Below, piece after piece: positions 1,939-58,847 of a stretch of DNA of 64,000 nt (positions within the stretch are counted from its first letter, which is position 1; every line of letters starts with the position of its first letter). The notes under the pieces are model-generated. The model did no database searches. It was given only the letters and a program-made list of their open reading frames with translations, and was not told the DNA's origin. This DNA is from Hysterangium stoloniferum. Its lineage: Eukaryota; Basidiomycota; Agaricomycetes; Hysterangiales; Hysterangiaceae. Both the position numbers and the translations under genes were made by a program. Location of the stretch: the NCBI GenBank assembly GCA_015178975.1, contig WHVD01000004.1:620001-684000 (forward strand), written 5' to 3'.

Positions 1939-2926
1939 ATGACCATGGGTTCAGGATTGAAGCCTTTTCCATCCAGGCCAACCATTGCCCCCTTATTGGA
2001 TCCAAGTGGACCCCTGAACACACAAGAGCGTCAAAGGCTTCTTGAAGAGAAGAAGAAGGCACACAAGGAGGAGGAATGTAGGGAAAGGGAAGAGCTGACG
2101 GTGATAGAGGTGGAGGAGAAAAGGTTGGCAGAGGAGGAGGTTGCTTGCAAGCATTGGGAGGCCAAGCTTGTGAAGAAGAAGCAATGGGAGGCTGATTGGG
2201 TGCGAGAAGAGGAGGTGAAAAAGAAGTGGGAGGGTAAAGTAAGTCAGAAGTTTTTCATTCTTGTAACCTTGCTGACATCCTTTACAGTGCAAGGCAGCGA
2301 CACCATCAGATTCCAATGACAAAGAGGATGGGGAGGATGAGGAGGAAGTGCTGGGGCCTTCGAGCCCATGTTCAGACTTCTAATATTTAGTTTTTATTTT
2401 ATTTTTTCAGTTATAGAAACAAAAATGGGCCCCCAAGGTGGGGCCAGAAAACAACCCAAAGTGCAATCGATGCACTAACTGTGGTTGGATTTGCCATCCA
2501 CAGGCCAATGGTTGGGGCAACACCTGTCAAGAGTGTGCCAATCAAAAACTCAGTTGCATCTTCCCAGATACCAACAGGAACAGGCCCTATCAAGAGCGGC
2601 AGGCAGATGCATTGGAGGAGCAAAATCAGCTCTTATGCATGTACTTCTTGGAGACTAGTCGGTTCCAACACAAACAACTGTGACAACAAGCATTGTTCAC
2701 TGAACAATTGTAATTGTTGGGCTTGGGGCTGGAGAAACAAACCAGCATCATAGAGTATCTTGGAGGAAAACTTGAACAGTATTTAGAGGTGTTGAGTTCC
2801 GATGAAGTTGGGCCAGGGGTTATGACTTTGGAGAAGGTCAGTGAGAAGGAGGTGTCAGTGGCTGTCAGTGAAGGGGAAATCTTGGAGGCTGGGGAAGGAG
2901 AGGTCGTAGAGGAGACTTATAGATAG
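1939..2926 (+). pseudogene. Antisense accessory gene of Gypsy-A: coiled coil plus six-Cys cluster (decayed)
   Basis: Three exons are readable. Exon 1 (1,939-2,238) encodes about 100 residues, the last 70 a charged coiled coil rich in E, K and R. Intron 1 is 2,239-2,287 (GTAAGT...TTTACAG). Exon 2 starts at 2,288 and is acidic. Its donor is degenerate (GTTCAG near 2,370). Exon 3 starts near 2,417 and carries six cysteines spaced C-X2-C-X6-C-X10-C-X2-C-X6-C (residues around CNRC...CQEC...LSC), the spacing of fungal Zn(II)2Cys6 clusters, then an acidic tail to 2,926. In-frame TGA (2,681) and TAA (2,711) break exon 3. Layout, intron positions and cluster match the genes at 18,222-19,206 and 48,759-49,870. 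Function is unknown; the cluster suggests DNA binding by inference only. Confidence 0.7.
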
Positions 2927-4554: not shown

Positions 4555-4882
4555 TGTAACAAAATATACTCAGTCAATACAATAGTATACTTTGACTATA
4601 TTTGTTACCTGTAACAAAATACGCTATGGTACATTTTGTGAGCTAAGAGAAAGGAGAAACAAGATGATTATGATATACCTCAGTTGATACAATAGTATAC
4701 TTCAACTGAGGTATGAAGCTACAAATACTGTGCTTAAATATACTACTGTCAATGTGACCATGTCACATTTGTATATGTGTCTAAGGTACCATTCCACTTG
4801 GTATGGCCATGTAGGCTTGATGTAGACTTGTGTGCTAGGTGTAAGGTTGACACAGACTCAGGCACTTGAGCCTATTTCAACA
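4555..4882 (-). repeat. Copia 3' LTR
   Basis: A 328-bp LTR running TGTTGAAATAG...TTTTGTTACA on the minus strand. Next to it at 4,883-4,895 the minus strand reads CCAGGGGGAGTG, a Copia-type polypurine tract. It matches the split LTR at 11,947-12,139 plus 20,241-20,370. Inverted repeats around AGTATACTTTGACT occur in both LTRs. Confidence 0.88.
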
Positions 4883-11946: not shown

Positions 11947-12139
11947 TGTAACAAAATACACTCAGTCGATACAATAGTATACTTTGACTATATTTGTTAC
12001 CTGTAATGAAATACACTATGGTACATTTTGTGAGCTAAGAGAAAGGAGAAACAAGATGATTATGACATACCTCAGTCGATATGATAGTATACTTTGACTG
12101 AGGTATGAAGCTACAAATACTGTACTTACATAAATATAC
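11947..12139 (-). repeat. Copia 5' LTR, first segment
   Basis: The 193 bp adjoining the PBS, matching 4,555-4,750 of the other LTR. It is interrupted after 12,139 by Gypsy-B and continues at 20,241-20,370. Confidence 0.88.
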
Positions 12140-12959
12140 TGTTACGACCGGACAAATCCCGCCGGACTCCGGGCACTAACTCGTACGCCCCCATGCGCTA
12201 CAAGCACCAATCGTCTGTTTATAGGATTTCCCGCCCGGACTCCGTTACGTCAAGACTCGTTACGTTCGACCTCATTAAGACACATATCAGTCACCGGACT
12301 TCCCCCGGACCCCATCTCTGTCTATGTCCATCTTCGTCCCACGCATCAGTCACCGGAACCCGCTTAGAATCCCGTCACCGCTCTAATCGAGCCCCGTTCC
12401 CGTTTTAGTCAAATGACCTGTCACGATTTAGGACTCCGCTCCCGCTCCGTTTCCCGTTATGGGATATGCTTTGTCACGATTCGGACTCCGCTCCGTTCCG
12501 TCCCGTTCCTAACACCAATTTGGTGTTTACTATTCCCGTTTTATGTTTTGCTCGTTTCGTCTCATTATTACTGGATTCGGTATGTCATGCATTCCACGGT
12601 CTATATAAACTGGCAGATGTTGTACATACAATCCAGTCAGAAAATTAGCTTAGATTCCCCCCAGTAATCTAATACATTTTCCTCTCTAAAAACCTACTCT
12701 TATCAGACCGCTCGCACTAGTCGGAGCCCACGGGCTCCGGCGCATCTATCTCTCTCGACTATCTCGATTCACGACTCTCGACTCACGACCTACGACTCAC
12801 AACCCACGAACCCCCGCCCGGACTCCCCGGGATTCCCATCCGCCTGTCTGAAATTGGACAACACGATCTAGCGAGGGCGCAGCCTATAAGCTGAAGCCAA
12901 GTCCCACCGGATATTCCGCGGGTTTCTCCGGAAACCCGCCCTGTGTGTGTATCCTAACA
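12140..12959 (+). repeat. Gypsy-B 5' LTR
   Basis: An 820-bp LTR from TGTTACGACC to CCTAACA. A TATA-like CTATATAAAC lies near 12,601. The core ATAAGCTGAAGCC at 12,886-12,898 is shared with families A and C. Immediately 3' the sequence is GTATTTTCTGACTAATAC, without the TGG that normally starts a tRNA primer site. Confidence 0.92.
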
Positions 12960-12995
12960 GTATTTTCTGACTAATACTCGCAGATTGTTTTCATT

Positions 12996-14285
12996 ATGCC
13001 ACCAAGAAGAAGTACACGCACACAGTCATCAATACCTGGACCGTCGACTCTTCATTCCCCGTTAACTCTGTATACCAGTCAGACGCTTGCGAACCAGTCG
13101 GAACCCATGGAAGAAGCCCGCATCGAAGAAATCCCGGAAGACCTGGACGAATCCGAGCGCGAGGACGATTCCGTGGCCCCCGACAAGGGCAAAGGTGTCG
13201 AAATCCCTCCTGAAAATCCTCCGCCTTTTCAACGACCGCACACGAGGGATCCTACTTCTGAGTTTTTAGCAGGTACTATAGATAAATTCATGACGCACCT
13301 GCTAGAAGAACGAAAAAGAAAGGAACAAGAACCTCCACGGTCAAAAGTCAATGCTCCGGAACCCTTCACGGGTTCCAACCCAAACAAACTCTCTACTTTC
13401 CTCATGCAATGTCGCTTCAATTTCCGCGATCGCGCCACTGCATTCTCCATGGACTCCCGAAAAGTCAACTACGCACTTTCATATTTGTCGGGATCTGCGT
13501 TGAAATGGTTCGAACCGGCTTTTAGCGGGATTACCGAGGAAGAGCCGCTCTGGCTTGAAAATTGGGAAGCTTTTGTTGAGGAGCTTGAAACCAACTTCGG
13601 CCCATATGACCCGACAGGAGAAGCCGAGAATAGTCTCACAAATCTTCGTATGAAGGACACGCAGCGCATCACGGACTACATCGTCCAATTCAATAATCTT
13701 GCAGCTCGTTGTCAGTGGGGCGATCCCGCTCTCCGCCACCAATTCTATGCCGGTCTGCCGTCCCGCCTTAAAGACGAAGTCTCGAAAGGAGAAGATGGCA
13801 AGCCAAAAACCCTGTCCCGTATGCGCCTCAAAGCTCAAAACGCGGACGCACGTTATTGGGAACGTCGCGCGGAAGTTGCCCGCGAGACGTCCGCGGACAA
13901 AATAAACAAGTCCAAGGACAAAAACAATAACACCAATTCGTCAACCAGCAACCAGAACTCCACGCAATCCGACAAGAAGAACGATAAAAAGTCTTCGAAC
14001 AACAACAACAATAAGGACAATAAGGACAACAACAAGGGTCAACAGTCCAGCAAGCAAGCCGGAAAACCCGACCTCTCAGGCAAACTCGGACCTGATGGCA
14101 AATTAACTCCACAAGAAAGACAACGTCGTATGGACAACAACCTCTGTCTCTTGTGCGGGAAACCCGGTCATCGAGTCCCGGAATGTCCGCTGGCAAAAGC
14201 AAACTCTTCAAAGGGTCAATCAGCCAAGGCCTCCACGGAAACCCCGTCGAAGGATAAACCAGCTGCCGATTCGAAAAAAGAGTAA
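12996..14285 (+). CDS. Gypsy-B Gag polyprotein
   Basis: An intact 429-residue capsid/nucleocapsid protein that would build the virus-like particle and bind element RNA in the cytoplasm. The first about 100 residues are polar and acidic. A retrotransposon gag domain follows (PEPFTGSNPNKLSTFLMQC through FYAGLPSRLKDE), then a K/N/S/Q-rich low-complexity linker, and one CCHC zinc knuckle at residues 384-397 (CLLCGKPGHRVPEC). The ATG lies 37 nt after the 5' LTR. The homologous gag of Gypsy-C (55,608-56,900) aligns throughout. Pol follows in another frame. Confidence 0.93.
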   Translation: MPPRRSTRTQSSIPGPSTLHSPLTLYTSQTLANQSEPMEEARIEEIPEDLDESEREDDSVAPDKGKGVEIPPENPPPFQRPHTRDPTSEFLAGTIDKFMTHLLEERKRKEQEPPRSKVNAPEPFTGSNPNKLSTFLMQCRFNFRDRATAFSMDSRKVNYALSYLSGSALKWFEPAFSGITEEEPLWLENWEAFVEELETNFGPYDPTGEAENSLTNLRMKDTQRITDYIVQFNNLAARCQWGDPALRHQFYAGLPSRLKDEVSKGEDGKPKTLSRMRLKAQNADARYWERRAEVARETSADKINKSKDKNNNTNSSTSNQNSTQSDKKNDKKSSNNNNNKDNKDNNKGQQSSKQAGKPDLSGKLGPDGKLTPQERQRRMDNNLCLLCGKPGHRVPECPLAKANSSKGQSAKASTETPSKDKPAADSKKE

Positions 14286-14401
14286 GCAACCCCGCGGACT
14301 CCGCGCGGGTTAGGGGTTGCGTTGCCTCTCCGCGCATTCAAGAGTTCACTCGCCTCAACGCATCCACTCTTTCACATTCTGATTCATTTTTCGTTAAACT
14401 G

Positions 14402-17400
14402 ATGTCTAATATGATCCCGAAATTCGTTTTTTCAGCTCTCATAGATTCCGGCTCGACTCATTGTTTTTTAGATACAAAATTCACGCAAAAAAATTCTTTG
14501 TCAACTTATTCGATAAATCCCGTCGCTCTCCGCCTCTTCGATGGCACAAGTAATTCGGTTGTTACCCAAGCTTGTGATTTACCCATCAGTTTCCCTTGTG
14601 GAACATCTCAATTGGTCACTTTCTATGTGACCCAGTTAGACTCAAGTTGCTCAGTGGTTCTAGGACATAACTGGCTTACCCGCTACAATCCGTTGATTGA
14701 CTGGATAGCTAACAGTATAACATTCCGGACTCCCGCGGCGACTGAGGAAACTGCGCCTGTCTCGGCCTCCACGGCACCCATGGCCTTCCCGGCACCTGCA
14801 GTCTCGAGGACTCCTGTGATCCCTACGGCACCTACAGCTTCCCCAGAACCCACGGCACCTCCGTCCATTTCTCTGATTAATGCTGCAGCTTTTATTAGGG
14901 CTTCAAAAATGGATGGGTCCCAGGCGTTCACTATCAACTTAAAAATTGATGAAGCAACTGGACGTTTCTCAACCCCAGTATCCGAATCTGAGCAAGCTGC
15001 TGATCTAGAAGGCATCCCGGAGAAATACCATGACTTCGCGGATGTTTTTAGCAAGTGAAAAGCTGACCGGCTTCCGCCTCACAGAGAATACGACTTAAAA
15101 TATCAATCTTGAAGATGGCGCCCAGCCACCCCTAGGACATATTTACCCGCTTTTGTCCACGGAACTATCCGCAATCCGTGATTTCCTGGATGAACATTTG
15201 TCCATAGACTTTATTCGACCCTCAAAGTCTCCTTTTGGAGCACCTGTTTTGTTTGTCAGAAAAAAGGATGGATCCCTTCGACTATGTGTTGATTTTAGAG
15301 GACTCAATGCTGTCACCAAAAAGGACAAATATCCACTCCCACTTATATCTGACCTGCTCGATGCTCTGCGGAATGCCCGGATTTACACCAAAATAGATCT
15401 CAAGCACGCCTATCATTTGGTCCGGATTGCCGCGGGTGATGAATGGAAAACCACTTTTAGAACCCGCTATGGGGCCTTCGAGTGGTTGGTCATCCCTTTT
15501 GGACTCACTAATGCCCCGTCTGTTTTTCAGCGTTTTATCAACGACATTTTCTCCGACATGCTCGATGTATGCGTCATTGTTTACTTGGACGACATTCTTA
15601 TCTACTCCGAGAATCCCGCGGAACACAACAAACAAGTCCGTGAGGTTCTCCGGAGGCTCAGACAACATGGTTTATTCGCAAATGGTAAAAAATGTACTTT
15701 TGACACGGACTCCGTGGAATACCTAGGTTTCATGATGGGACCCGATGGACTCCGCATGGACGAAACTAAAGTACAAGTCATCAAAGATTGGCCCAAACCC
15801 CGAAAAGTTAAAGATATACAATCCTTCCTCGGCTTTGCCAATTTTTACAGACGTTTTATCCGTGGATATTCCGACATCACGGTACCCCTTACCCGTCTTA
15901 CGCATAAGGGTACTCCATGGAATTTTAACGATAAGTGTCAAAAAGCTTTCAATCTTTTAAAAAATTCTTTTTCCACAGCTCCTATTCTGTCGCATTGGAA
16001 ACTGGACTTCCCGCTCATTGTTGAAACGGACGCCTCCGACTATGCACTTGGAGCCATTCTCTCTATCCAGGACTCCGACGGAGAAGTCCACCCCGTGGCT
16101 TTTCTGTCCCGGACTTTTACCGGAGCAGAGCTCAACTACGACGTTCATGATAAAGAACTTCTGGCAATCTTTTCAGCTTTCAAAGCGTGGCGACACTATT
16201 TGGAAGGTTCAGGAGCTCCTATTGACGTTGTAACAGATCACAAAAACCTGGAATACTTTTCTACCACAAAACTCTTGACCCGTCGGCAGGCCCGCTGGTC
16301 TGAATATCTCTCCGCCTTCAACATGATTATCCGTTTTCGACCCGGCCGTCTCGGCGGCAAACCCGACGCTTTAACTAGACGATGGGACGTCTATCCTAAA
16401 GAGGGGAGCAACGACTATGCAACGGTAAATCCGCATAACCTGAAACCTATTTTCACGAATCAACAACTTACCGCATCGGTCCGCGCAACTTTCCTCGTCA
16501 ATCCCATTGTCCGTGGAATTATCATTATGGATATCGAAAAGTTACATCAAGATATTCTATCGGCAATTCCACTAGACCCAGTTACTAAAGCTCATCTGGA
16601 CAATCCTGTGGACCCCGATCAACCTCGGTGGTCTCTTGATCAACATGGTTTCATTAGACTTGACGATAGGATCTATGTACCAGACTCCGACGGCCTCCGC
16701 CTCAGGATCCTTCAATACAAACATGATCATCCACTCTCAGGACATTTCGGGTACAACAAAACTCTATCATTAATAAGAAGAGAATATACTTGGCCCGGAC
16801 TCCGTGGATTTGTTAAGCACTATTGTAAATCTTGCACTACTTGTCCCCGCTCGAAATCTCAGCGACACAAGCCATATGGCCTTTTGAAACAACTCCCGGT
16901 ACCGGAACACCCGTGGAATTCTATATCTATGGATTTCATTGAACACCTACCAGATTCCGAAGGCTTTTCCGCTATTCTAGTCGTTGTTGACAGATTCTCA
17001 AAACAAGGTATATTCATCCCTACTTATGATACAATTACGTCCGTGCAGTTAGCGGAACTTTTCATTATCCACGTATTTTCCAAGCACGGAGTTCCATCCC
17101 ACGTGACTTCCGATTGAGGATCAGAGTTTGTGTCTCACTTCTTTAGATCCCTCGGAAAATCCTTGGACATGACATTACATTTCACGTCCGGACATCATCC
17201 GGAAGGTGACGGACAAACCGAACGCGTCAACCAGACATTGGAACAATACCTCCGCGTATATTGCAACTATCAACAGGACAATTGGAAAACCTTGTTACCA
17301 CTTGCAGAGTTTGCTTACAACAATGCACCCTCGGCCACTACTGGCGTTTCCCCGTTCTTTGCAAATAAAGGATATAATCCAAACATTACAGTACATCCAG

Positions 17401-18011
17401 AACGAAATCTCACCTCTGTTCGTGCTCAAGAGTTCACCATGGACCTCCACGAGCTCCACGAGGAACTCCGGACTGCAATACTGTCCGCCCAAGAGCAATA
17501 CCAACATTCAGCGGACAAACACCGGATCCCGCCACCCAACTTCAAGATTGGCGACCGGGTTTATGTCAAAGCTCAATTCTTCCGGACTACCCGTCCATCA
17601 AAGAAGCTTGCTGAAAAATATTTAGGTCCCTTTGAAATTATCGCACAAGTAGGTTCAGTTTCTTGGACTCTACGGCTTCCGGATAGCATGCGCACGGTAC
17701 ACCCGGTATTTCATGTCTCTATGCTAGAACCTTGTACTGCTAACACTATCCCAGATCGCGTGCAATCTCCGCCTCCTCCTGTCATCATTGACGGAGAACC
17801 CGAGTTTGAAATCTCGCAGATTTTAGATTCAAAAATTGACAAGCATTGATGCACTTGTAAACTGCTTTACTTGGTCAAGTGGGCGGGTTACGAGGGCACC
17901 GATGAAGAAACCTCATGGATTTTGGCCATGGAACTCGGTAATGCCACGGAAATCGTTACTGACTTTCATACAGCTTACCCACTCAAACCTGGACCATTAT
18001 CGTCTCTCTGA
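14402..18011 (+). pseudogene. Gypsy-B Pol polyprotein (protease-RT-RNase H-integrase-chromodomain), broken
   Basis: The protease active site ALIDSGST lies near 14,440. The first segment ends at a TGA (15,056), then one extra base near 15,100 shifts the frame. RT and RNase H follow, open from 15,153: DFRGLNAVTKKDKYPLPL, FGLTNAPSVFQRF, YLDD at 15,582-15,593, and ETDASDYALGAILS. Next is integrase with an HHCC finger near 16,727-16,845 and the first catalytic Asp in SMDFIEHLP. A TGA at 17,115 replaces the arginine after the second Asp. The rest of the core reads HHPEGDGQTERVNQTLEQYL. A third TGA (17,847) precedes the chromodomain, ending at 18,011. All three stops fit CGA-to-TGA change. The role would be cDNA synthesis and integration. 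Confidence 0.92.
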
Positions 18012-18221
18012 CCGCACTCCGCGGACCCCGTGTTACGTTTGGACTCATTTTCACTATTCCCTGTCGCCCTATGTCTCTCTTTGCTTTTACAGGTTCTGAC
18101 ATGTCTTGTCAAGTCTTTAAGCGGATTCCCCGCGGACTTTGGCTTTGACTTTTAATTTTTATGTTTTTCTTTCACGCTTTGCTTTTATGATTCAAATTAT
18201 TTTTTATTCTATACTACTTTT
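18012..18221. other. Gap between convergent pol and accessory gene
   Basis: A T-rich stretch of 210 bp between the pol stop and the 3' end of the antisense gene. It probably holds both 3' UTRs. No other coding signal is seen. Confidence 0.5.
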
Positions 18222-19206
18222 TCAGTCTACATTTATGGGACTGTTCTTTTTCCCTGCTTCCTCAGCTATCTCCTCTGGGAGCTCCACGACCTCCGCGGCA
18301 ACCCCGTCCTCATCCGATCCGGCATCCTCGGAACTCCCGACTTGCGGCTCCTTATAGACATAGCCGCCATACTCCGCCAGGAACTTCCAAAACTCCTCGC
18401 GGAGTCCGGACAGCTCCTTTGCCACCACAATTTGGACCTTGTTGCTCTTCCGGAGCAACTCGTTTTGGGCCTCGATGCCCTCGGCGATCTGTCCAAGGAC
18501 CTCGTCCAACCCGGACAACCCGTCCGTCCCGCTTATGTCTCGCGCCCCGGATCCCGTGGCCTGCTCGTGCACAAGCGAGCACCTCACCTTGAGGTGCACG
18601 CATTGATAACATCCCGGCCCCCGGCCAGCCTTTCGGTTGCATTCCATGTTCCGGTCGTTGCAACCGGAACACCGCGGCTCGTTCTGCGTCGGAAGATGGA
18701 CTGGTGCCGCCTTCCTTGCCTTCTGTTGATATGGTCAGTTTCCACGGGTATTCCATGGACATGAGGCCTACCTTTTGGGGGCTCTCTGGCTCCCCCTCGG
18801 ACTCGGACTCCACCTCTGTCGCTTTGCGCTGAAAATCACAAGTCAGTAAAAAATCGACAAGTTGAATATTGGTACTTACCTTTCCCGCAACAATGGCGGC
18901 CCTCTCCGCGGCCAACCGGGCTTTCTCCGCAGCCACCCGGGCATTCTCCGCGGCCACTCGCGCAGCCTCCTCCGCCTCACGTTCCCTCTCCTTTGCGGCC
19001 TCTTCCTCCACGGCCAATGCTTCCTGGTACTCTCTGTCCAGGGCCTCCTCAGCCTCCCTTGCCTCTCTCTCTGCTGCTTCACGAAGCTGGCACTGCTCTT
19101 CTCGCCGCGCCAACAATTGGGCCGCCGTCCACGGCGCCCGATACGGAGTGCCCATGGAGGGCCCTGCTGTTGGCATTGGCTTGCGTGGTGTCGGTTTTGG
19201 TCCCAT
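18222..19206 (-). CDS. Antisense accessory protein of Gypsy-B: coiled coil plus Zn2Cys6-like cluster
   Basis: A three-exon gene inside the element, antisense to pol. Exons are 19,206-18,880, 18,828-18,772 and 18,722-18,222. The introns are 51 and 49 nt (GTAAGT...TTTCAG; GTAGGC...CAACAG). The product is 294 residues with no stop. Residues about 28-108 form an Ala/Glu/Arg-rich coiled coil. Exon 2 is acidic. Exon 3 has a six-Cys cluster (CSGC...MEC...CYQC...VRC) spaced C-X2-C-X6-C-X9-C-X2-C-X6-C, a second possible helix (LDEVLGQIAEGIEAQNELL), and an acidic tail. Spacing fits fungal Zn(II)2Cys6 domains, but the basic residues usual after the second Cys are lacking; the second half (CYQCVHLKVRC) looks more like the canonical first half. 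It could regulate element or host transcription. I do not recognise it as a named family. Confidence 0.78.
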
Positions 19207-19402
19207 GGTGATGAAGATGGGGGTAATAAAGAAGAAGAAATTTCTATTTTTCAATTTTTTATATAGGCTCGTCGCGTTTGAACCTTACCTTCCAGATCAC
19301 ATGACTCTTTGACACATACGTGTAACTGACATGACTTTTGACACATGCGCGTAGCCGACAAGAACCTTATTTAGGTCTAGAGCCTCTTTGGGACTTCGGC
19401 AT
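19207..19402 (-). promoter_or_regulatory. Promoter of the Gypsy-B accessory gene
   Basis: On the minus strand, GCCGAAGTCCCAAAGAGGC (19,382-19,400) lies just inside the polypurine tract, as in the other two elements. Then comes a repeated GTGTCAAA...TCATGT block. A TATA box (TATATAAAAAA, ending at 19,255) lies 49 nt before the ATG. The same 49-nt spacing recurs in the Gypsy-A and Gypsy-C copies. Confidence 0.65.
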
Positions 19403-19415
19403 AAAGGGAGGATAC
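19403..19415 (+). other. Gypsy-B polypurine tract
   Basis: AAAGGGAGGATAC directly precedes the 3' LTR. It is the expected plus-strand primer site. Families A and C have the equivalent GGGGGG(A)TAC at the same place. Confidence 0.75.
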
Positions 19416-20235
19416 TGTTACGACCGGACAAATCCCGCCGGACTCCGGGCACTAACTCGTACGCCCCCACGCGCTACAAGCACCAATCGTCTGTTTATAG
19501 GATTTCCCGCCCGGACTCCGTTACGTCAAGACTCGTTACATTCGACCTCATTAAGACACATATCAGTCACCGGACTTCCCCCGGACCCCGTCTCTGTCTA
19601 TGTCCGTCTTCATCCCACGCATCAGTCACCGGAACCCACTTAGAATCCCGTCACCGCTCTAATCGAGCCCCGTTCCCGTTTTAGTCAAATGACCTGTCAC
19701 AATTTAGGACTCCGCTCCCACTCCGTTTCCCATTATGGGATATGCTTTGTCACGATTCGGACTCCGCTCCGTTCCGTCCCGTTCCTAACACCAATTTGGT
19801 GTTTACTATTCCCGTTTTATGTTTTGCTCATTTCGTCTCATTATTACTGGATTCGGTATGTCATGCATTCCACGGTCTATATAAACTGGCAGATGTTGTA
19901 CATACAATCCAGTCAGAAAATTAGCTTAGATTCCCCCCAGTAATCTAATACATTTTCCTCTCTAAAAACCTACTCTTATCAGACCGCTCGCACTAGTCGG
20001 AGCCCACGGGCTCCGGCGCATCTATCTCTCTCGACTATCTCGATTCACGACTCTCGACTCACGACCTACGACTCACGACCCACGAACCCCCGCCCGGACT
20101 CCCCGGGATTCCCGTCCGCCTGTCTGAAATTGGACAACACGATCTAGCGAGGGCACAGCCTATAAGCTGAAGCCAAGTCCCACCGGATATTCCGCGGGTT
20201 TCTCCGGAAACCCGCCCTGTGTGTGTATCCTAACA
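19416..20235 (+). repeat. Gypsy-B 3' LTR
   Basis: 820 bp, the same length as the 5' LTR. The 13 differences I see from the 5' copy are all CG versus CA or TG. The core is at 20,162-20,174. Confidence 0.92.
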
Positions 20236-20240
20236 TATAC

Positions 20241-20370
20241 TAGTGTCAACTGTGTCACATTTGTATACATAAGGTACCATTCCACTTGGTATGGCCATGT
20301 AGGCTTGACCTAGACTTGTGGGCTAGGTGTAAGGTTGACACAGACTCGGGCACTTGAGCCTATTTCAACA
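20241..20370 (-). repeat. Copia 5' LTR, second segment
   Basis: The 130 bp continuing the split LTR to its outer end (TGTTGAAATAG on the minus strand). It is followed by the element's AGTTA duplication. With the first segment it makes 323 bp, against 328 bp for the intact LTR. Confidence 0.88.
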
Positions 20371-47352: not shown

Positions 47353-48573
47353 TGTTAAGTGCCGTGTCGGGAACTTATTCTGGAACTATCGGGAAGTCAC
47401 CGGGAACTTGGGAACTGTCCGGTAGGGTCAGGACGTTGGCTTCAGTTTATGTGCTGCGCCTCTACGCAAACGCTCGAAGTCCTTAATTTCAAAGGTGAGA
47501 TTTACGATGGAAGATACAGATATTCAGAGTTCCAAAGAGTTCCGAATATCGAGCGTACAGAAAGATGGGAGGAGGAATAAGAAACTAAGTTGATATCAGA
47601 TCTAAGGAGGATATCTGAAAACTATTAAGTATACCAAATCCTAATATACTCTAAAGGTCATTTAAACATCTGGGATGTGATTCAAACATAATTTGGTTTT
47701 TAAAACTTTCAAAAAGTTTTAAACTCTCTCATACATTACAAACTAATGAATCTTTCTGGACACCAGTAGACAATAAAAAAAATTAGTAGTTTGAAACACT
47801 AATACTTTTAAAAAATAGATACCTTTAAATAGTCCATTCCATGCATATCTATATCATTGGCACCTCTAAATACATATGTATTACTTCGGAATAGATCTGT
47901 CAATCTAAACAGATTTCTACTTGATTCAACATACCCAGAATATATAGGGGGTTTTACTTAATAAAGACAGCTGTGGTATGAAAAATTTCCAACAATATTT
48001 TACATATTTTACATGGAAATAACTTCATTACAACTTTTAAAAAACAAAGTACTAATAAAAGTATTAGTAGGCATCTGTAAAAGGAAGGAAATTATATACA
48101 ATGGAATTTGTTAAATAACTATGGGTTGTATAAGATGTAATATGGAGAACTATTTCTGATGGTTGTTTTTTGATGATATAATTGTTTCAGAATAGATATC
48201 ACTATTTAAAGATGGAGTTTTGTAAAAATAAGACTTTTATTAGTAAATATTTGAGGTTATAGTAATTATAAACACCCTCCTAAGGTAAAGTACAAATTCG
48301 CGGAAACTAATATAAGTCTACTCGTTATTGTACTACAAACTAAGACCATAATAAGACGGAAACGGAAGTGTTCTTAAAATGGAAATACAATAAGACATAT
48401 TAGGGAGACAATATTCTGAAACGGGAATATAACAACAAACGAGTGAATAACTGTCAACGGACAAATTACCAAATGTGGAACAAAGAGAGAATACGGATGA
48501 TACGGTAACTATGATGTTCCGTAATCAGATATCGGAAGTCGGATATCGGAACATCTGGGAACGGGTCGTAACA
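47353..48573 (-). repeat. Gypsy-C 3' LTR, carrying an insertion
   Basis: LTR sequence at 47,353-47,605 and 48,284-48,573 totals 543 bp. A polypurine tract (GGGGGTAC on the minus strand) is at 48,574-48,582. The core motif (minus strand) is at 47,438-47,450 with one transition. Confidence 0.88.
47606..48280. mobile_element. PIF/Harbinger-like non-autonomous insertion
   Basis: A 675-bp AT-rich insertion in the LTR, flanked by TAA on both sides (47,603-47,605 and 48,281-48,283). The ends are GGAGGATATCT and, inverted, GGAGGGTGTTT, differing only by transitions. A TAA duplication and GG ends are typical of PIF/Harbinger elements. There is no coding capacity. Confidence 0.7.
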
Positions 48574-48582
48574 GTACCCCCC

Positions 48583-48758: not shown

Positions 48759-49870
48759 ATGTCGATACGTCGGCCACTGTTCATTACCACCCCGGAAGAT
48801 TCAGATACTGAAATTGCCATGCTCCAAAAAATGTCGAAGGTCGCAGAACTTCAACAAAAATGACAAAGGATGGAGGAGTTGAAGCAATGACAGGAGGAAG
48901 AGGAAAAGGTGTTGATGCAGGAGTTGAAAGATGTGGAAGAGGCGGAGAAACGGGAGCTGGAGCGGGTGAAGGCGGAAGCTCAGAAAAGGAAAAAGGAGGC
49001 GGAAAGGTTACAGCGGGAATCAGAGGAGGTGAAGAGACATGAGATAAGGGAAGGAAAGGTAAGTGACATCCATAATATCCGTGATTCCAACCGATAACTA
49101 TTGGGTACAGCGAAAAGCCGTGGAGATGGAAGTAGAGGGAGAGGTTGGACTGTCGAGTCCTAAAGTAAGTGCATCTACAAAAAGAACTGGTAATTGATTA
49201 ACTTCCGTAACAGAAGCCAAAGGTCAAGGCTCCAGAACGGATGGAAGTGGTCCATGAAAATCCATGTTATCGATGTTCCATACGGAGTATGACGTGTTGG
49301 AAACAGAAGGTAAAATGGGGCGGAACTTGCTATCCCTGCGCGGTCCTTAAACTTCTGTGCACTCTTGCCTCGAAAAGAGTTCCGAAAGGTGAGAAGGCTC
49401 AGAAAACTAACGACGCGGAAGGTTCGGGAACAGCTAGGGCTGCGGACACTGAGATGCCGAGGACGGATAGTATGGGGATTGAGCTCCTCAAGGACACCGT
49501 CGACGCATCAGTCTTTATTGGGACGGAAGTCATGAAGATGCGGGACACGATGGATCATCATAACGATATCCAGGAAAAAGGTTTCCATTCGTTGATCCGG
49601 AACTTCCGGAGGCAAAACGATTTCTTGGAGAAAATAATGGTTAGCATCAGTGTCATTGCAGTATCTGAGAGATTTTCCGATAAGGCACGGGAACAACCAA
49701 ATGATCCGTTGGCGGAAAGTGTCGAGAAAAGGTGGGGGTCAGGAAATGGGCCAGAGGTGTCGGAGAGTGAAGATGAAGAGGTGCAGGATATGGTGGAAAG
49801 TGCGGAGGTTGCTGAAAAGATGGAAGACGGGATGGAAGGTGGATTTGGGGTATCAGAAACCTTAAGATAG
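48759..49870 (+). pseudogene. Antisense accessory gene of Gypsy-C: coiled coil plus Zn2Cys6-like cluster
   Basis: Exons are 48,759-49,058, 49,111-49,164 and 49,214-49,870. The introns are 52 and 49 nt (GTAAGT...GTACAG; GTAAGT...TAACAG). Exon 1 is a long Glu/Lys/Arg coiled coil with two TGA codons (near 48,861 and 48,888) at places fitting CGA. Exon 2 begins RKA, as in the Gypsy-B copy. Exon 3 has the cluster C-X2-C-X6-C-X10-C-X2-C-X6-C (CYRC...MTC...CYPC...LLC), a second helical region (SLIRNFRRQNDFLEKI) and an acidic C-terminus (SESEDEEVQDMVE). Total length would be 336 residues. It converges with pol, whose end lies at 49,973. Function is inferred only from the cluster. Confidence 0.75.
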
Positions 49871-52800
49871 TTCAATAATATTTTTTTGACTTGCAAAACC
49901 TAAAAACGAGTGTGATATCGGAAGTAGCGGAAGTGAGTGTCAGAAACTGAAACAGAAGAAAAAACAGAAGAGTCAGAGTGATGATAAAGGTCCGGGTTTG
50001 TTTGGATAAGCCGTGTGGAAATCAGTAACAATTTCCATAGCATGTCCTAGTTCCATGGCCAATATCCATGAAGTTTCCTCGTCGGTACCTTCATAACCTG
50101 CCCATTTGACTAAATAGAGCAATTTACAAGTACGTCGGCGATTGTCAATTTTAGAATCCAAAATTTCGGAAACTTCAAATTTGGGTTCTCTGTCAATAAT
50201 GACCGGAGGGGACGGAGGTTGAATACATTCTGGGATGTTGTTAGGAACACAGGGTTCTAACATGGAAACGTGAAAAACGGGATGAACTGCTCGCATACTA
50301 TCGGGGAGTCGGAGAGTCCATGAGAGTGAACCGGCTTGTGCTATAATTTCAAAAGGTCCTAAGAATTTCTCAGCAAGTTTTTTAGAAGGTCGGGTAGTAC
50401 GGAAGAATTGAGCTTTTACAAAAACCTGATCACCAATTTTAAAATTGGGAGGCAGGATTCTGTTTTTGTCCGTGGAACGTTGATAATATTCCTGTGCGGA
50501 AGAAATAGCTTTCCGAAGTTCTTGATGTAATTCATCGAGGTCGGTAATAAATTCTTGAGCACGGACAGAAGCCAAATCTCGTTCGGAATGTACGGTGAGA
50601 TTCGGATTATAGCCTTTGTTGGCGAAAAAGGGAGATACGCTGGTAGTTGCATTCGGAGAGTTATTGTAGGCGAATTCCATGATCGGAAGAAGGGATTTCC
50701 AGTTGTCCTGTTGATAATTACAATAGATGCAGAGATATTGTTCCAATGTTTGATTTATGCGTTCCATTTGTCCATCACCTTCCAGGTGATATCCCGAGGT
50801 GAAGTGTAGTTTCATATCGAGGGCTTTTCCGAGAGCCTGGAAGAAATGGGAGACGAACTTGGAGCCTCGATCAGAAGTTACGTGGGATGGAACTCCGTGT
50901 TTGGAAAATACGTGAATAATGAAAAGTTCTGCTAATTGTAAGGACGTGATTGTGTCATGAGTGGGTATGAAAATGCCTTGTTTCGAGAATCGATCCACAA
51001 CAACTAGAATGGATGTAAAGCCTTCGGAAGTTGGGAGTTGTTCGATGAAATCCATGGAAATTGAGTTCCAGGGTTTTTCTGGTATCGGGAGTTGCTTAAG
51101 AAGGCCGTATGGCTTATGCCTCTGGGTCTTAGAGCATAAGCAGGTGGTGCATGACTTACAGAACTGGGTTACAAAATCTCGGAGGTTGGGCCAAGTATAT
51201 TCTCTACGGATTAAACCAAGAGTATTGTGAATGCCGTAATGTCTGGAGATTGGATGATCGTGTTTATACTGAAGTACGCAGAGTCGGAGATTGTCGGAAT
51301 CTGGAACGTAGATACGTCCATCGAGACAGATGAAACCTTGAGAGTTTTGTGACCATCGGGGTTGATCCGGATTGTCGGGAACTTCTAGGTGTGGCTTAAG
51401 AGCCGGATCGGAAGTGAGGGCGGAAAGGATATCTTGATGTAATTGTTCAATGTCCATAATCATGACGCTACGCATAATTGGATAGTAGAGGGAAGTTGCT
51501 CGGATAGATGTGGAAAGTTGTTGCATAGTAAAAACCAGTTTCAAGTTATGCGGATTAACAACTGCATAGTTACTTTCCCCCTCTTTAGGATAGACGTCCC
51601 ATCATCGAGTCATGGCATCTGGTTTTCCACCAAGACGTCCGGGTCGGAAACGGATAATCATATTGAAAGCAGAGAGGAATTCGGACCAGCGGGCCTGCCG
51701 GTGGGTTAAAAGTTTAGTGGTAGAAAAATATTCGAGATTTTTGTGATTGGTAACGACGTCAACGGGAGTTGCGGAACCTTTGAGATAGTGGCGCCAATGT
51801 TTGAAAGCTTCAAAAATTGCCAAAAGTTCCTTATCATGAACGTCGTAGTTGAGTTCGGACACTGAAAGTGTTCGAGAAAGGAATGCGACCGGATGAATTT
51901 CACTGTCGAAATCTTGAATGGAAAGAATCGCGGCAATTGCATAGTCAGAAGCATCGGTTTCCACAATAATCAGAACATCAGGTTTCCAATGGGAAAGAAT
52001 CGGGGCAGAAGTGAAAGCATTCTTTAAAGTCTGAAAGGCGGAGTGGCATTTGTCGTCAAAGACCCATGGTTGAGCTTTACGGGTAAGACGAGTGAGTGGT
52101 ACCGTAATATCCGAGTAGTTCCGAATAAAACATCTGTAAAAATTGGCGAAACCTAAAAATGACTGAATATCCTTGACTTTCCGTGGTTCGGGCCAATGAC
52201 GGACAACTTGAACCTTGGTTTCATCCATACGGAGACCATCAGGTCCGATAATGAAACCTAAGTATTCAATGGAATCCATGTCAAAGTAGCATTTTTTACC
52301 GTTGGCGAAAAGACCATTTTTATGGAGTCATCGGAAGACTTCACAGACTTGTTCGTTGTGGAGAGTGGGATCCTCGGAAAATACCAAAATGTCGTCCAAA
52401 TAGACTATGACACATACATCAATGTAATGTATTAGCCTTATTTTAATACTATTTTCCGAAAAAGGAGTCCAATGCTCTATCAAAATGTGCAAATACTCAA
52501 TTCACTGCTAGGTAAAATAATTTAAGTATTTGATATTAATCAGTGGCAGCCTAAATAGACTTAGAACCTCTGAAGTCAAGAGTTTACTTGAATATATGCA
52601 CCCTACTTCGCAAAGAAGGTTTTGAGAGCTGCTTGTGCAAGCTTGTTCTTTTTCTGTAAAAACAACCACTAAAATAAGAATAACAATTTACTGATTCCGA
52701 AGCTATATTTAACTTCAATGCTAGCTAGTTTATATATATTTTATACTATTTGTCAAACAGTAAAAATATTTATAAACGGGTCAAAAGATTAGATATAGAA

Positions 52801-56934: not shown

Positions 56935-57477
56935 TGTTAAGTGCCGTGTTGGGAACTTATTCCGGAACTATCGGGAAGTCACCGGGAACTCGGGAACTGT
57001 CCAGTAGGGTCAGGACGTTGGCTTCAGCTTATGTGCTGCGCCTCTACGCAAACGCTCGAAGTCCTTAATTTCAAAGGTGAGATTTACGATGGAAGATACG
57101 GATATTCAGAGTTCCGAAGAGTTCCGAATATCGAGCGTACAGAAAGACAGGAGGAGGAATAAGAAACTAAGTCGATATCAGATCTAAGGTAAAGTACAAA
57201 TTCGCGGAAACTAATATAAGTCTACTCGTTATTGTACTACAAACTAAGACCATAATAAGACGGAAACGGAAGTGTTCTTAAAACGGAAATACAATAAGAC
57301 ATATTAGGGAGACAATATTCCGAAACAGGAATATAACAACAAACGAGTGAATAACTGTCAATGGACAAATTACCAAATGCGGAACAAAGAGAGAATGCGG
57401 ATGATATGGTAACTATGATGTTCCATAATCGGATATCGGAAGTCGGATATCGGAACATCCGGGAATGGGTCGTAACA
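56935..57477 (-). repeat. Gypsy-C 5' LTR
   Basis: A 543-bp LTR, TGTTACGACC...CACTTAACA on the minus strand, with the core at 57,020-57,032. The adjoining internal sequence starts GTATATCAG, again without a TGG primer-site start. Confidence 0.9.
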
Positions 57478-58847
57478 GTTTGGTGCTCTGGGAGGTGTAC
57501 ATATAGTGGTTCTGACACACATTAGCCTCCAAATGCATGGTCCACAATTAGCATTTTCATATGAAAAGTTGCAATAATTGGTGGACTCCCCCTATAAAAA
57601 AGGTGTGTTTTGGTCTATGACGAAGATTCTGCTTCACCTTGATTTGATCTATGTACATGTCAGCTAATGATGGATAAGCTTGCGTATTAGTCAGTGAGAG
57701 TTCCATCTGTGTCAATGTAGTTGACATTTACTGATGATATATCCAAATTAACAGAAGAATATGCCACTAGATTTTGAAGATGACTCATTCATCGATGTCA
57801 TGTCAGGAAGCAAGTAGCAGTTTGTGATCCATTGAGTCATTGAAGCTATCTTCATTTATCTGTCAGCTTGTATTAAAAATAGTATGAGTTGACTTATTGT
57901 AATACACAATCTAAAGGGGGTAATAGACTTGTAATAATAGTACTTGTTTGTCAATCAATGTGTCAGTTAGTGAATCACCTTCTGACATGATAGGTTTGGT
58001 GCTAGTTTAGGTGTACACTGGTTCTGGCATGCATTAACCTCAGAATGCATGGTCCACAATTAACATCTTCATATTAAAAAGTGAAGAAGTGGATGAACTG
58101 CCCTAGGAAAAGGGTGCTTTCATCACCAATTCTAACAGCTTGTATGTTCTTATCACCAATGCCTCACCTTACGACATTGGATTCCAATCCCATCCGTGTC
58201 GACTTAGTTTGGGGTTCAACTCTCGTCTCAACCCCAGTACTTATCACATTAATAAACTCGGACAATAGGTACCACGGGTCCAAACACATCAACAACCAAC
58301 GGCCCTTCCACTACATAACGAATCTATTCTTGAAGTCTGATGGGAATTGCAGCCTGAGGTCTTCAGAATATAGACACCGTGGCCGAGCTTTCCCTTTTCT
58401 GTAATAATCCGCACCACCTCCAACTCCTGTAGACAACTGAAAAAATGTCACGAACTAACAGAGAATAATTATTAATTAAGTATTTGTTTTGATAAGCCTC
58501 TGAAGTCAGACCCGAGATCCAGCATATATGTTGTTTTGACCTTTGTCGCGAAAGAATCAACCTTCAACCGGGAGTTATCAGGTTGAGTGTAGCAGCGGCT
58601 CAAAATCACTCATTACAGGAAAGATAAACGCCATACATAATTAGAACCGATGTTTGTAGTAAACCCAAGGAGTTCCTCAAAAGTCTGCCATCTATGAGAA
58701 GGTGATGAAATGCGTCAGAACACATGCAAATTATATCCAAACAATGTGAGTGAATAACAGGAAAATGTCGAAAGGAAGTAATACAATATGCTTGCTGAAA
58801 CAAAAGAATGCACAAAACAAAAATAACAGATGAATGACTACGGAGTC
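57478..58847. other. No recognisable gene; diverged direct repeat
   Basis: Two direct copies of about 100 bp (57,479-57,590 and 57,990-58,100) share TTTGGTGCT, AATGCATGGTCCACAATTA and TTCATAT. The intervening 400 bp is AT-rich. I see no supported coding region. The stretch next to 58,847 should hold the 3' UTR of the DUF300 gene. Confidence 0.55.

Follow-up and report, generated by a model that had tools for sequence, protein, structure and literature searches.

A spliced antisense gene encoding a six-cysteine protein in three Gypsy families of Hysterangium stoloniferum

Does the additional gene that three diverged Gypsy elements of Hysterangium stoloniferum carry on the strand opposite to gag and pol belong to these elements as a selected gene, and what might its protein do for them? 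The question arises from a stretch of 64,000 nucleotides (contig WHVD01000004.1 of assembly GCA_015178975.1, positions 620,001 to 684,000 of the forward strand; hereafter the window, numbered from its first letter), in which members of the families A, B and C each hold one copy. An earlier reading, made from the sequence only, had taken the gene for an accessory gene encoded by the elements and had described its product as a putative regulator with a cluster of the fungal Zn(II)2Cys6 type.

The copy in element B encodes 294 amino acids in three exons without an internal stop; it starts from an ATG at 19206 on the minus strand, the strand opposite to gag-pol, and occupies the space between pol and the 3' LTR. 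Exon 1 (18880..19206, minus strand, 109 codons) is charged and, as read from the sequence, coiled-coil-like. It is followed on the same strand by intron 1 (18829..18879, 51 nt, GTAAGT...CAG), exon 2 (18772..18828, 57 nt, RKATEVESESEGEPESPQK), which is NLS-like together with its neighbours, intron 2 (18723..18771, 49 nt, GTAGGC...CAG) and exon 3 (18222..18722), which contains a basic stretch, a cluster of six cysteines (CX2CX6CX9CX2CX6C), a predicted long helix and an acidic tail. Both introns are kept in relatives. The TATA box TATATAAA (19258..19265, minus strand) stands 57-59 nt before the accessory ATG.

Copy C (48759..49870, plus strand) is antisense to pol at 49973-52327 and has two in-frame TGA codons in exon 1, and the decayed copy A (1939..2926, plus strand) is antisense to a pol remnant starting about 100 bases beyond. 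Both share the layout of copy B, with cysteines spaced 2-6-10-2-6 (2-6-9-2-6 in B). The decay of copy A comprises the loss of the intron-2 donor and two internal stops in exon 3; its intron-2 acceptor TATAG gives KQK, matching relatives, and at the site of the lost donor relatives read SPKVC and the model of locus L060 has a donor GTATGT. The three exons and two GT-AG introns reported by the sequence-only reading were recovered in copy B, the defective donor that it had seen in copy A was confirmed as lost, and its cysteine spacing, C-X2-C-X6-C-X9/10-C-X2-C-X6-C, holds in all three copies.

Element B is bounded by a 5' LTR (12140..12959, plus strand, 820 bp) and a 3' LTR (19416..20235, plus strand) that are 98.3% identical, and is flanked by the 5-bp repeat TATAC at 12135-12139 and 20236-20240. 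Its gag (12975..14285, plus strand) is a frame of 436 aa that matches Pfam Retrotrans_gag over the cut-off, with a zinc knuckle below the Pfam cut-off. Its pol (14258..18012, plus strand) spans protease, RT, RNase H, integrase, SH3_Tf2-1 and a chromodomain-like end in several frames, with two in-frame TGA codons (17115-17117 and 17847-17849). The pol of C matches the chromodomain PF00385 (26.3 bits, cut-off 25.1), as expected of a chromovirus, and the end of the B pol beyond its TGA reads like this chromodomain-bearing end. The purine run AAAGGGAGGA (19403..19412, plus strand, read from the sequence) lies just 5' of the 3' LTR and is likely to function as the polypurine tract. The primer site for tRNA in LTR elements usually begins with TGG; GTATTTTCTGAC at 12960-12971, after the 5' LTR, does not. 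Both flanks of the element, the left (11947-12142) at 91.9% and the right (20231-20370) at 87.9%, find a match in a repeat at 4555-4882, which resembles a paralogous empty site and so would mark where the element inserted.

Exon-level matches in the H. stoloniferum genome number at least 205 for the B protein and at least 150 for exon 3 of C, and a 77-residue piece of copy A yielded at least 150; the accessory gene is present in many copies per family and is not a one-off capture. Sixty loci were extracted with their flanks (30 B, 15 C, 15 A) from the best-scoring matches, a non-random sample that includes the window copies, and 23 further loci were chosen for divergence or open frames. Seven of the latter, referred to as A-young, belong to family A and are in a better state of preservation; L059 and L062 were added to them in an A-young set of nine. 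Regarding protein matches between families, B matched C with E=4e-19 and A-young with E=5e-16 (composition correction off).

The gene was accompanied by pol downstream on the opposite strand in 58 of the 60 loci, window copies included (30/30 B, 15/15 C, 13/15 A); the exceptions were L057, with pol matches on the same strand, and L061, with no pol match. The gap between the end of the gene and the pol match was 71-227 nt in 56 of these 58 loci, 821 nt in L049 and 731 nt in L055. A matching LTR was found upstream in 48/60 loci (29/30 B, 14/15 C and, with a short LTR probe, 5/15 A). The position between pol and the 3' LTR that had been claimed for A, B and C is thereby borne out, and an absence from other elements of the same families, which the sequence-only reading had named as counter-evidence, was not observed.

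A spliced-gene finder based on an ATG, two short introns, six cysteines and a stop returned a model in 41 of the 83 loci, as compared with 0 of 20 mononucleotide shuffles of the plus strand of the window. The models were distributed as 25/30 B, 2/10 diverged B, 7/15 C, 4/6 diverged C, 1/15 A and 2/7 A-young, some of them being poor because they start late, rely on different splice sites or have exon 1 frame-shifted. On the window itself, the finder recovered copy B and missed copy A, and its model of copy C begins late and uses weak donors. In 63 of 70 copies (38/40 B, 19/21 C, 6/9 of the A-young set), both introns begin with GT and end with AG; intron 1 measures 48-60 nt in 39/40 B copies and 0 in one, and the lengths of all three exons are congruent modulo 3 with the reference in 31/40 B, 16/21 C and 2/9 A-young copies. 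Both intron positions are common to all three families. The database protein P0003, which stems from an independent gene call, is joined exactly at both predicted junctions, where it reads ...REGK HKAAT... and ...SPK KQKQAP... (compare L063 and L083). Antisense introns read CT...AC in the sense RNA and so escape splicing; because they are antisense and unrecognised in the sense genomic RNA, the introns survive reverse transcription and are inherited by each new copy, with which their conservation among the copies is consistent.

Upstream of the gene, a TATA[AT]A motif occurs 49-72 nt before the ATG in 64 of the 69 copies with enough upstream sequence (36/39 B, 20/21 C, 8/9 A-young), whereas among 366 equally sized windows elsewhere upstream just one contains it.

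The distribution of the gene beyond the sampled loci was viewed at 12 further Gypsy pol ends, chosen by eye, that had no listed accessory gene nearby. Seven of them (L086-L091, L095) do carry a B-type gene antisense behind pol, partly incomplete; the B-type gene at L093 points the other way and probably belongs to a neighbouring element; and at four (L092, L094, L096, L097) the gene is absent in about 2.4 kb. Within this small sample, the accessory gene looks like a trait of one Gypsy clade, the other clade being different in this respect. Protein searches gave only three matches, all from H. stoloniferum, in a search so insensitive that one run (E up to 10) missed even those. In the viral contigs searched, neither the accessory protein nor the B pol had a confirmed relative.

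Selection on the gene was assessed by pairwise Nei-Gojobori estimates for pairs with dS of 0.08-1.2; the pairs are not independent, and each set of rows holds the reference twice. The median dN/dS in the gene frame was 0.19 for B (479 pairs, 41 rows), 0.22 for C (230 pairs, 22 rows) and 0.17 for A-young (33 pairs, 10 rows). The two shifted frames over the whole CDS gave 1.29 and 1.35 (B), 1.13 and 1.07 (C), and 1.15 and 1.03 (A-young), and exon by exon they ranged from 0.93 to 1.53. For the C-terminus of pol at the same loci, the in-frame dN/dS was 0.29 in B and 0.22 in C, as compared with 0.70-0.94 when read out of frame; the strength of constraint on the accessory protein is thus similar to that on pol. 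Because dN/dS is low in the gene frame and above 1 in the shifted frames of the whole CDS, we conclude that the accessory gene is a selected protein gene. The value near 1 that had been named in advance as speaking against an element-encoded gene did not occur, and the claim of an accessory gene common to diverged families stands, now with purifying selection added to it.

Stop codons were distributed likewise by frame. The gene frame of exon 3 has a stop in 9 of the 70 copies (5/40 B, 3/21 C, 1/9 A-young; in total seven stops in B, three in C and one in A-young), and each of the other two frames of the gene strand has one in 70/70. Coding on the pol strand was considered and rejected: the exon-3 frame that shares its wobble positions with the gene has a dN/dS of 0.28-0.33, but it contains a stop in all 70 copies (131 stops in B, 67 in C, 38 in the A-young set). 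Another pol-strand frame, in B, has a stop in just 15 of 40 copies, yet its dN/dS is 1.19. On these sequences, a chromodomain-type Gypsy clade almost certainly carries an antisense three-exon gene, preceded at constant spacing from its start by a TATA box and under purifying selection, in three families.

In copy B, exon 2 and the start of exon 3 read KRKA...SPQKKARK, an NLS-like basic signal; a KRKA...SPKK-like signal of this kind and the six cysteines are kept in all three families. Among seven aligned proteins from open models, which share about 31% identity between families over exons 2-3, the six cysteines are invariant, as are the positions GK.KA, SP and KK, a lysine in the second half of the cluster and the glycine before the fourth cysteine.

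The Zn2Cys6 family (PF00172) has the spacing CX2CX6CX5-12CX2CX6-9C, with which the clusters of B and of A and C agree. This part of the claim that the spacing defines a fungal Zn(II)2Cys6 cluster stood; the assignment itself did not. The Pfam Zn_clus model scored 8.8 bits on the whole B protein and 15.1 bits on a 60-residue piece of it, below the cut-off of 21 bits, and did not match a piece of C; five of the seven aligned proteins gave matches, the best with E 0.74. In known Zn2Cys6 clusters, the first half is basic (R/K between the second and third cysteine) and touches DNA. Such a basic first half is missing from the accessory clusters: in a first-half profile, nine element clusters scored -10.5 to -0.1 bits, versus 6.1 to 16.4 bits for ten of 11 host clusters of the same genome, the remaining one scoring -8.1. 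These 11 were chosen by eye from matches in 15 of 22 host loci, with near-duplicates and overlapping readings left out, and several belong to multi-cluster proteins. The halves of the element clusters fall below most of these host clusters. Canonical membership in Zn2Cys6 was therefore rejected, both the Pfam score and the basic first half having failed. An arrangement with swapped halves was also tried; it beats the canonical order in seven of nine element clusters, but all scores are low. The name Zn2Cys6 thus has half the support that it would need, and the accessory cluster is classed here as Zn2Cys6-like by its spacing, outside the family proper. Separately, open frames with several back-to-back zinc clusters were seen in this genome, in a number of near copies (C56 27459-45410, C115 74483-75050, C209, C37).

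Two structure models, one from a single sequence and one from five sequences, have mean pLDDT values of 43.9 and 53.2, i.e., low confidence. The second shows a hairpin plus a helix in the cysteine region and does not speak for a Zn2Cys6 fold; a long helix is modelled at residues 72-127 of the exon-3 frame, with block pLDDT values of 52-74. Foldseek with the second, low-confidence model found no match in the PDB, and a PDB sequence search gave four matches with E 0.084 or weaker, none of them a zinc cluster. Pfam on the accessory protein produced just the sub-threshold Zn_clus match, and no bZIP domain.

Identity between the families is 27-33% for the accessory protein, 48-53% for gag, 55% for the protease part (B versus A-young only) and 75-83% for pol, and the LTRs are nearly unalignable, aligning in short pieces only. 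One short alignable stretch holds ATAAGCTGAAGCC in B (19416-20235), A-young (L065) and C (L044, L042, L037). Compared with the other copy at 56935-57479, the 3' LTR of the C family (47353-48575) is interrupted by some 670 bases (47608-48279). Since the accessory protein is tightly constrained within a family and changed between families alongside the LTR, it is suggested to read the DNA of its own family.

Candidate targets were sought in the LTRs. The LTR of B contains five CGG-N2/3-CCG sites (0.76 expected), in its 3' copy all of the form CGG-N3-CCG, and that of A-young also contains five (0.41 expected); 0 of 500 shuffles reached the observed count in each case. Three C-family LTRs tested contained none. 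This spacing was picked after a scan of 48 arrangements, and the sites are also raised in pol (6/500 shuffles in B and 2/500 in A-young reach the observed count); the enrichment is a lead rather than a result. Repeated 8-mers containing CGG were compared with dinucleotide shuffles, of which 0 of 300 each reached the observed value in the B and A-young LTRs, and 9, 1 and 0 of 300 in three C LTR copies; for the U3 part alone the figures were 0 (B), 1 (A-young) and 70 (C) of 300. The controls for this comparison are thin, as two of the three control stretches are probably C- and A-family LTRs by their repeat matches. These two have 7 and 2 CGG-containing pairs, reached by 0 and 3 of 300 shuffles, and the remaining one has none. 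Three gene-less Gypsy stretches after pol, which are AT-richer (0.00 expected) and whose LTR ends are not delimited, showed no CGG-N2/3-CCG site and for these reasons carry little weight as controls.

Antisense genes in retroelements have precedents. Zhao et al. (2011, Virology) reportedly described Boty-like elements with brtn. According to the accessible parts of the sources, the Boty-like elements of Botrytis cinerea carry this additional antisense gene (PMC7264820, PMC8365987, PMC4227169). Like the present elements, they are fungal LTR retrotransposons that have a CHROMO domain and bear an extra antisense gene, but Botrytis is an ascomycete, and the likeness to brtn is drawn from descriptions. 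Plant elements have additional antisense ORFs (aORF-3R) between pol and the 3' LTR, namely gene23 of maize Grande and those of rice RIRE2 and Silene Retand (PMC7264820, PMC11963269, in part). The gene23 product is described as nuclear, and its ORF as having a promoter ahead of it (PMC7264820); for the TRP28 domain of Retand, DNA binding is thought probable (PMC11963269); and the functions of such plant ORFs are described as open (PMC7264820), each in the parts of these texts that were available. These genes are likewise antisense and in the same position, as far as the descriptions go; unlike here, their proteins are described as other kinds, and the word intron does not occur in the main texts of PMC7264820 and PMC11963269. 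HBZ of HTLV-1, as portrayed in the available portions of the literature, is encoded antisense at the 3' end, nuclear (PMC11963269), and regulates the sense promoter, splicing being part of its control (PMC12313066). The position at the 3' end of a retroelement is shared, and a nuclear regulatory role would be; HBZ, in contrast, is a bZIP protein with promoter activity in the 3' LTR. VANC proteins of Arabidopsis VANDAL elements, by the accessible text of PMC5735166, are related proteins that act on different sets of elements, with targets varying between related elements. By this description they are similar in logic, being encoded by the element and varying by family, although VANDAL is another class of element. 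The sequence-only reading had known of no published description. That statement was too broad in view of Grande, RIRE2, Retand and brtn, as partially accessible sources describe them; it held for the present form, as none of the papers listed by searches of a library that lacks most subscription journals described a spliced antisense cysteine-cluster gene in fungal Gypsy elements. Antisense extra ORFs were already known, and the spliced cysteine-cluster form is new.

Our preferred explanation of the gene is that a spliced antisense mRNA would give a nuclear protein (with NLS-like signal, coiled coil, two-half cysteine cluster and acidic tail), that this protein would bind the DNA of its own family, most likely in the LTR or the antisense promoter region, and that, once bound, it would set the balance of element expression versus silencing as an activator, repressor or anti-silencing factor. 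As a whole, i.e., the sequence facts together with such a DNA-binding nuclear protein, this explanation has in our judgment about an even chance of being correct. The divergence between families and the near-unalignable LTRs favour a family-specific nuclear regulator of the element, whose mechanism we infer; a regulator of its own LTR would fit the NLS-like signal, the cysteine cluster and a divergence faster than that of pol. Against a regulator it must be held that gag and the protease also diverge more than pol, and the fast divergence of the accessory protein fits other roles too.

A special form of this explanation, which we regard as possible though somewhat unlikely, is that of an anti-silencing factor that would bind repeated family-specific motifs of its element and remove or block host DNA methylation and heterochromatin in the manner of VANC. 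The accessory protein and the noncoding DNA diverge together between families as pol stays similar, close to what the accessible text of PMC5735166 describes for VANC and its targets, and the excess of repeated CGG-containing 8-mers in the B and A-young LTRs points the same way. Changes from Arg to Gln, Trp or stop among the copies resemble CpG decay, which makes methylation likely. The motif evidence, however, is post hoc and weak in C. Retroviral accessory factors do work of the type of packaging, nuclear import of cDNA and integration, and a co-factor at the level of the particle or RNA would be expected to bind RNA or Gag through the cysteine cluster and to aid in these steps. The basic signal and the cluster could bind RNA, but Gag already has a zinc-knuckle-like stretch (below the cut-off), and a separate antisense promoter-like signal with introns suits a regulator made apart from particles, so that we consider this role unlikely.

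It is still less probable that the antisense RNA, and not a protein, is the product. Such an RNA is complementary to the genomic RNA, and could pair with it and feed RNA silencing or translation control, a role discussed for plant elements in the accessible part of PMC7264820; the frame dependence of dN/dS, the few stops in the gene frame and the intact splice sites nevertheless need a protein, to which RNA effects may be added. As for a captured piece of a host gene carried along without function, many copies are indeed decayed and 42 of the 83 loci lack a model, but the contrast in dN/dS between the gene frame (0.17-0.22 in three families) and the shifted frames (1.03-1.35, whole CDS) refutes it as a general account, and we give it hardly any credence.

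Returning to a protein that would bind the DNA of its own family, a tentative extension, for which we would claim a modest chance at most, is that the spliced antisense cysteine-cluster DNA-binding protein of each family and the target repeats in its LTR change together. If true, this would be a system of self-recognition, in which a family switches or shields only itself, and it would correspond among fungi to HBZ by its layout and to VANC by its logic, its introns being kept from loss by their antisense orientation. Because numerous copies exist in families whose proteins and LTRs both differ, the co-evolution of a protein and its target can be tested directly. The elements also illustrate a simple route by which a retroelement may keep introns, namely by placing them on the strand other than that of the genomic RNA.
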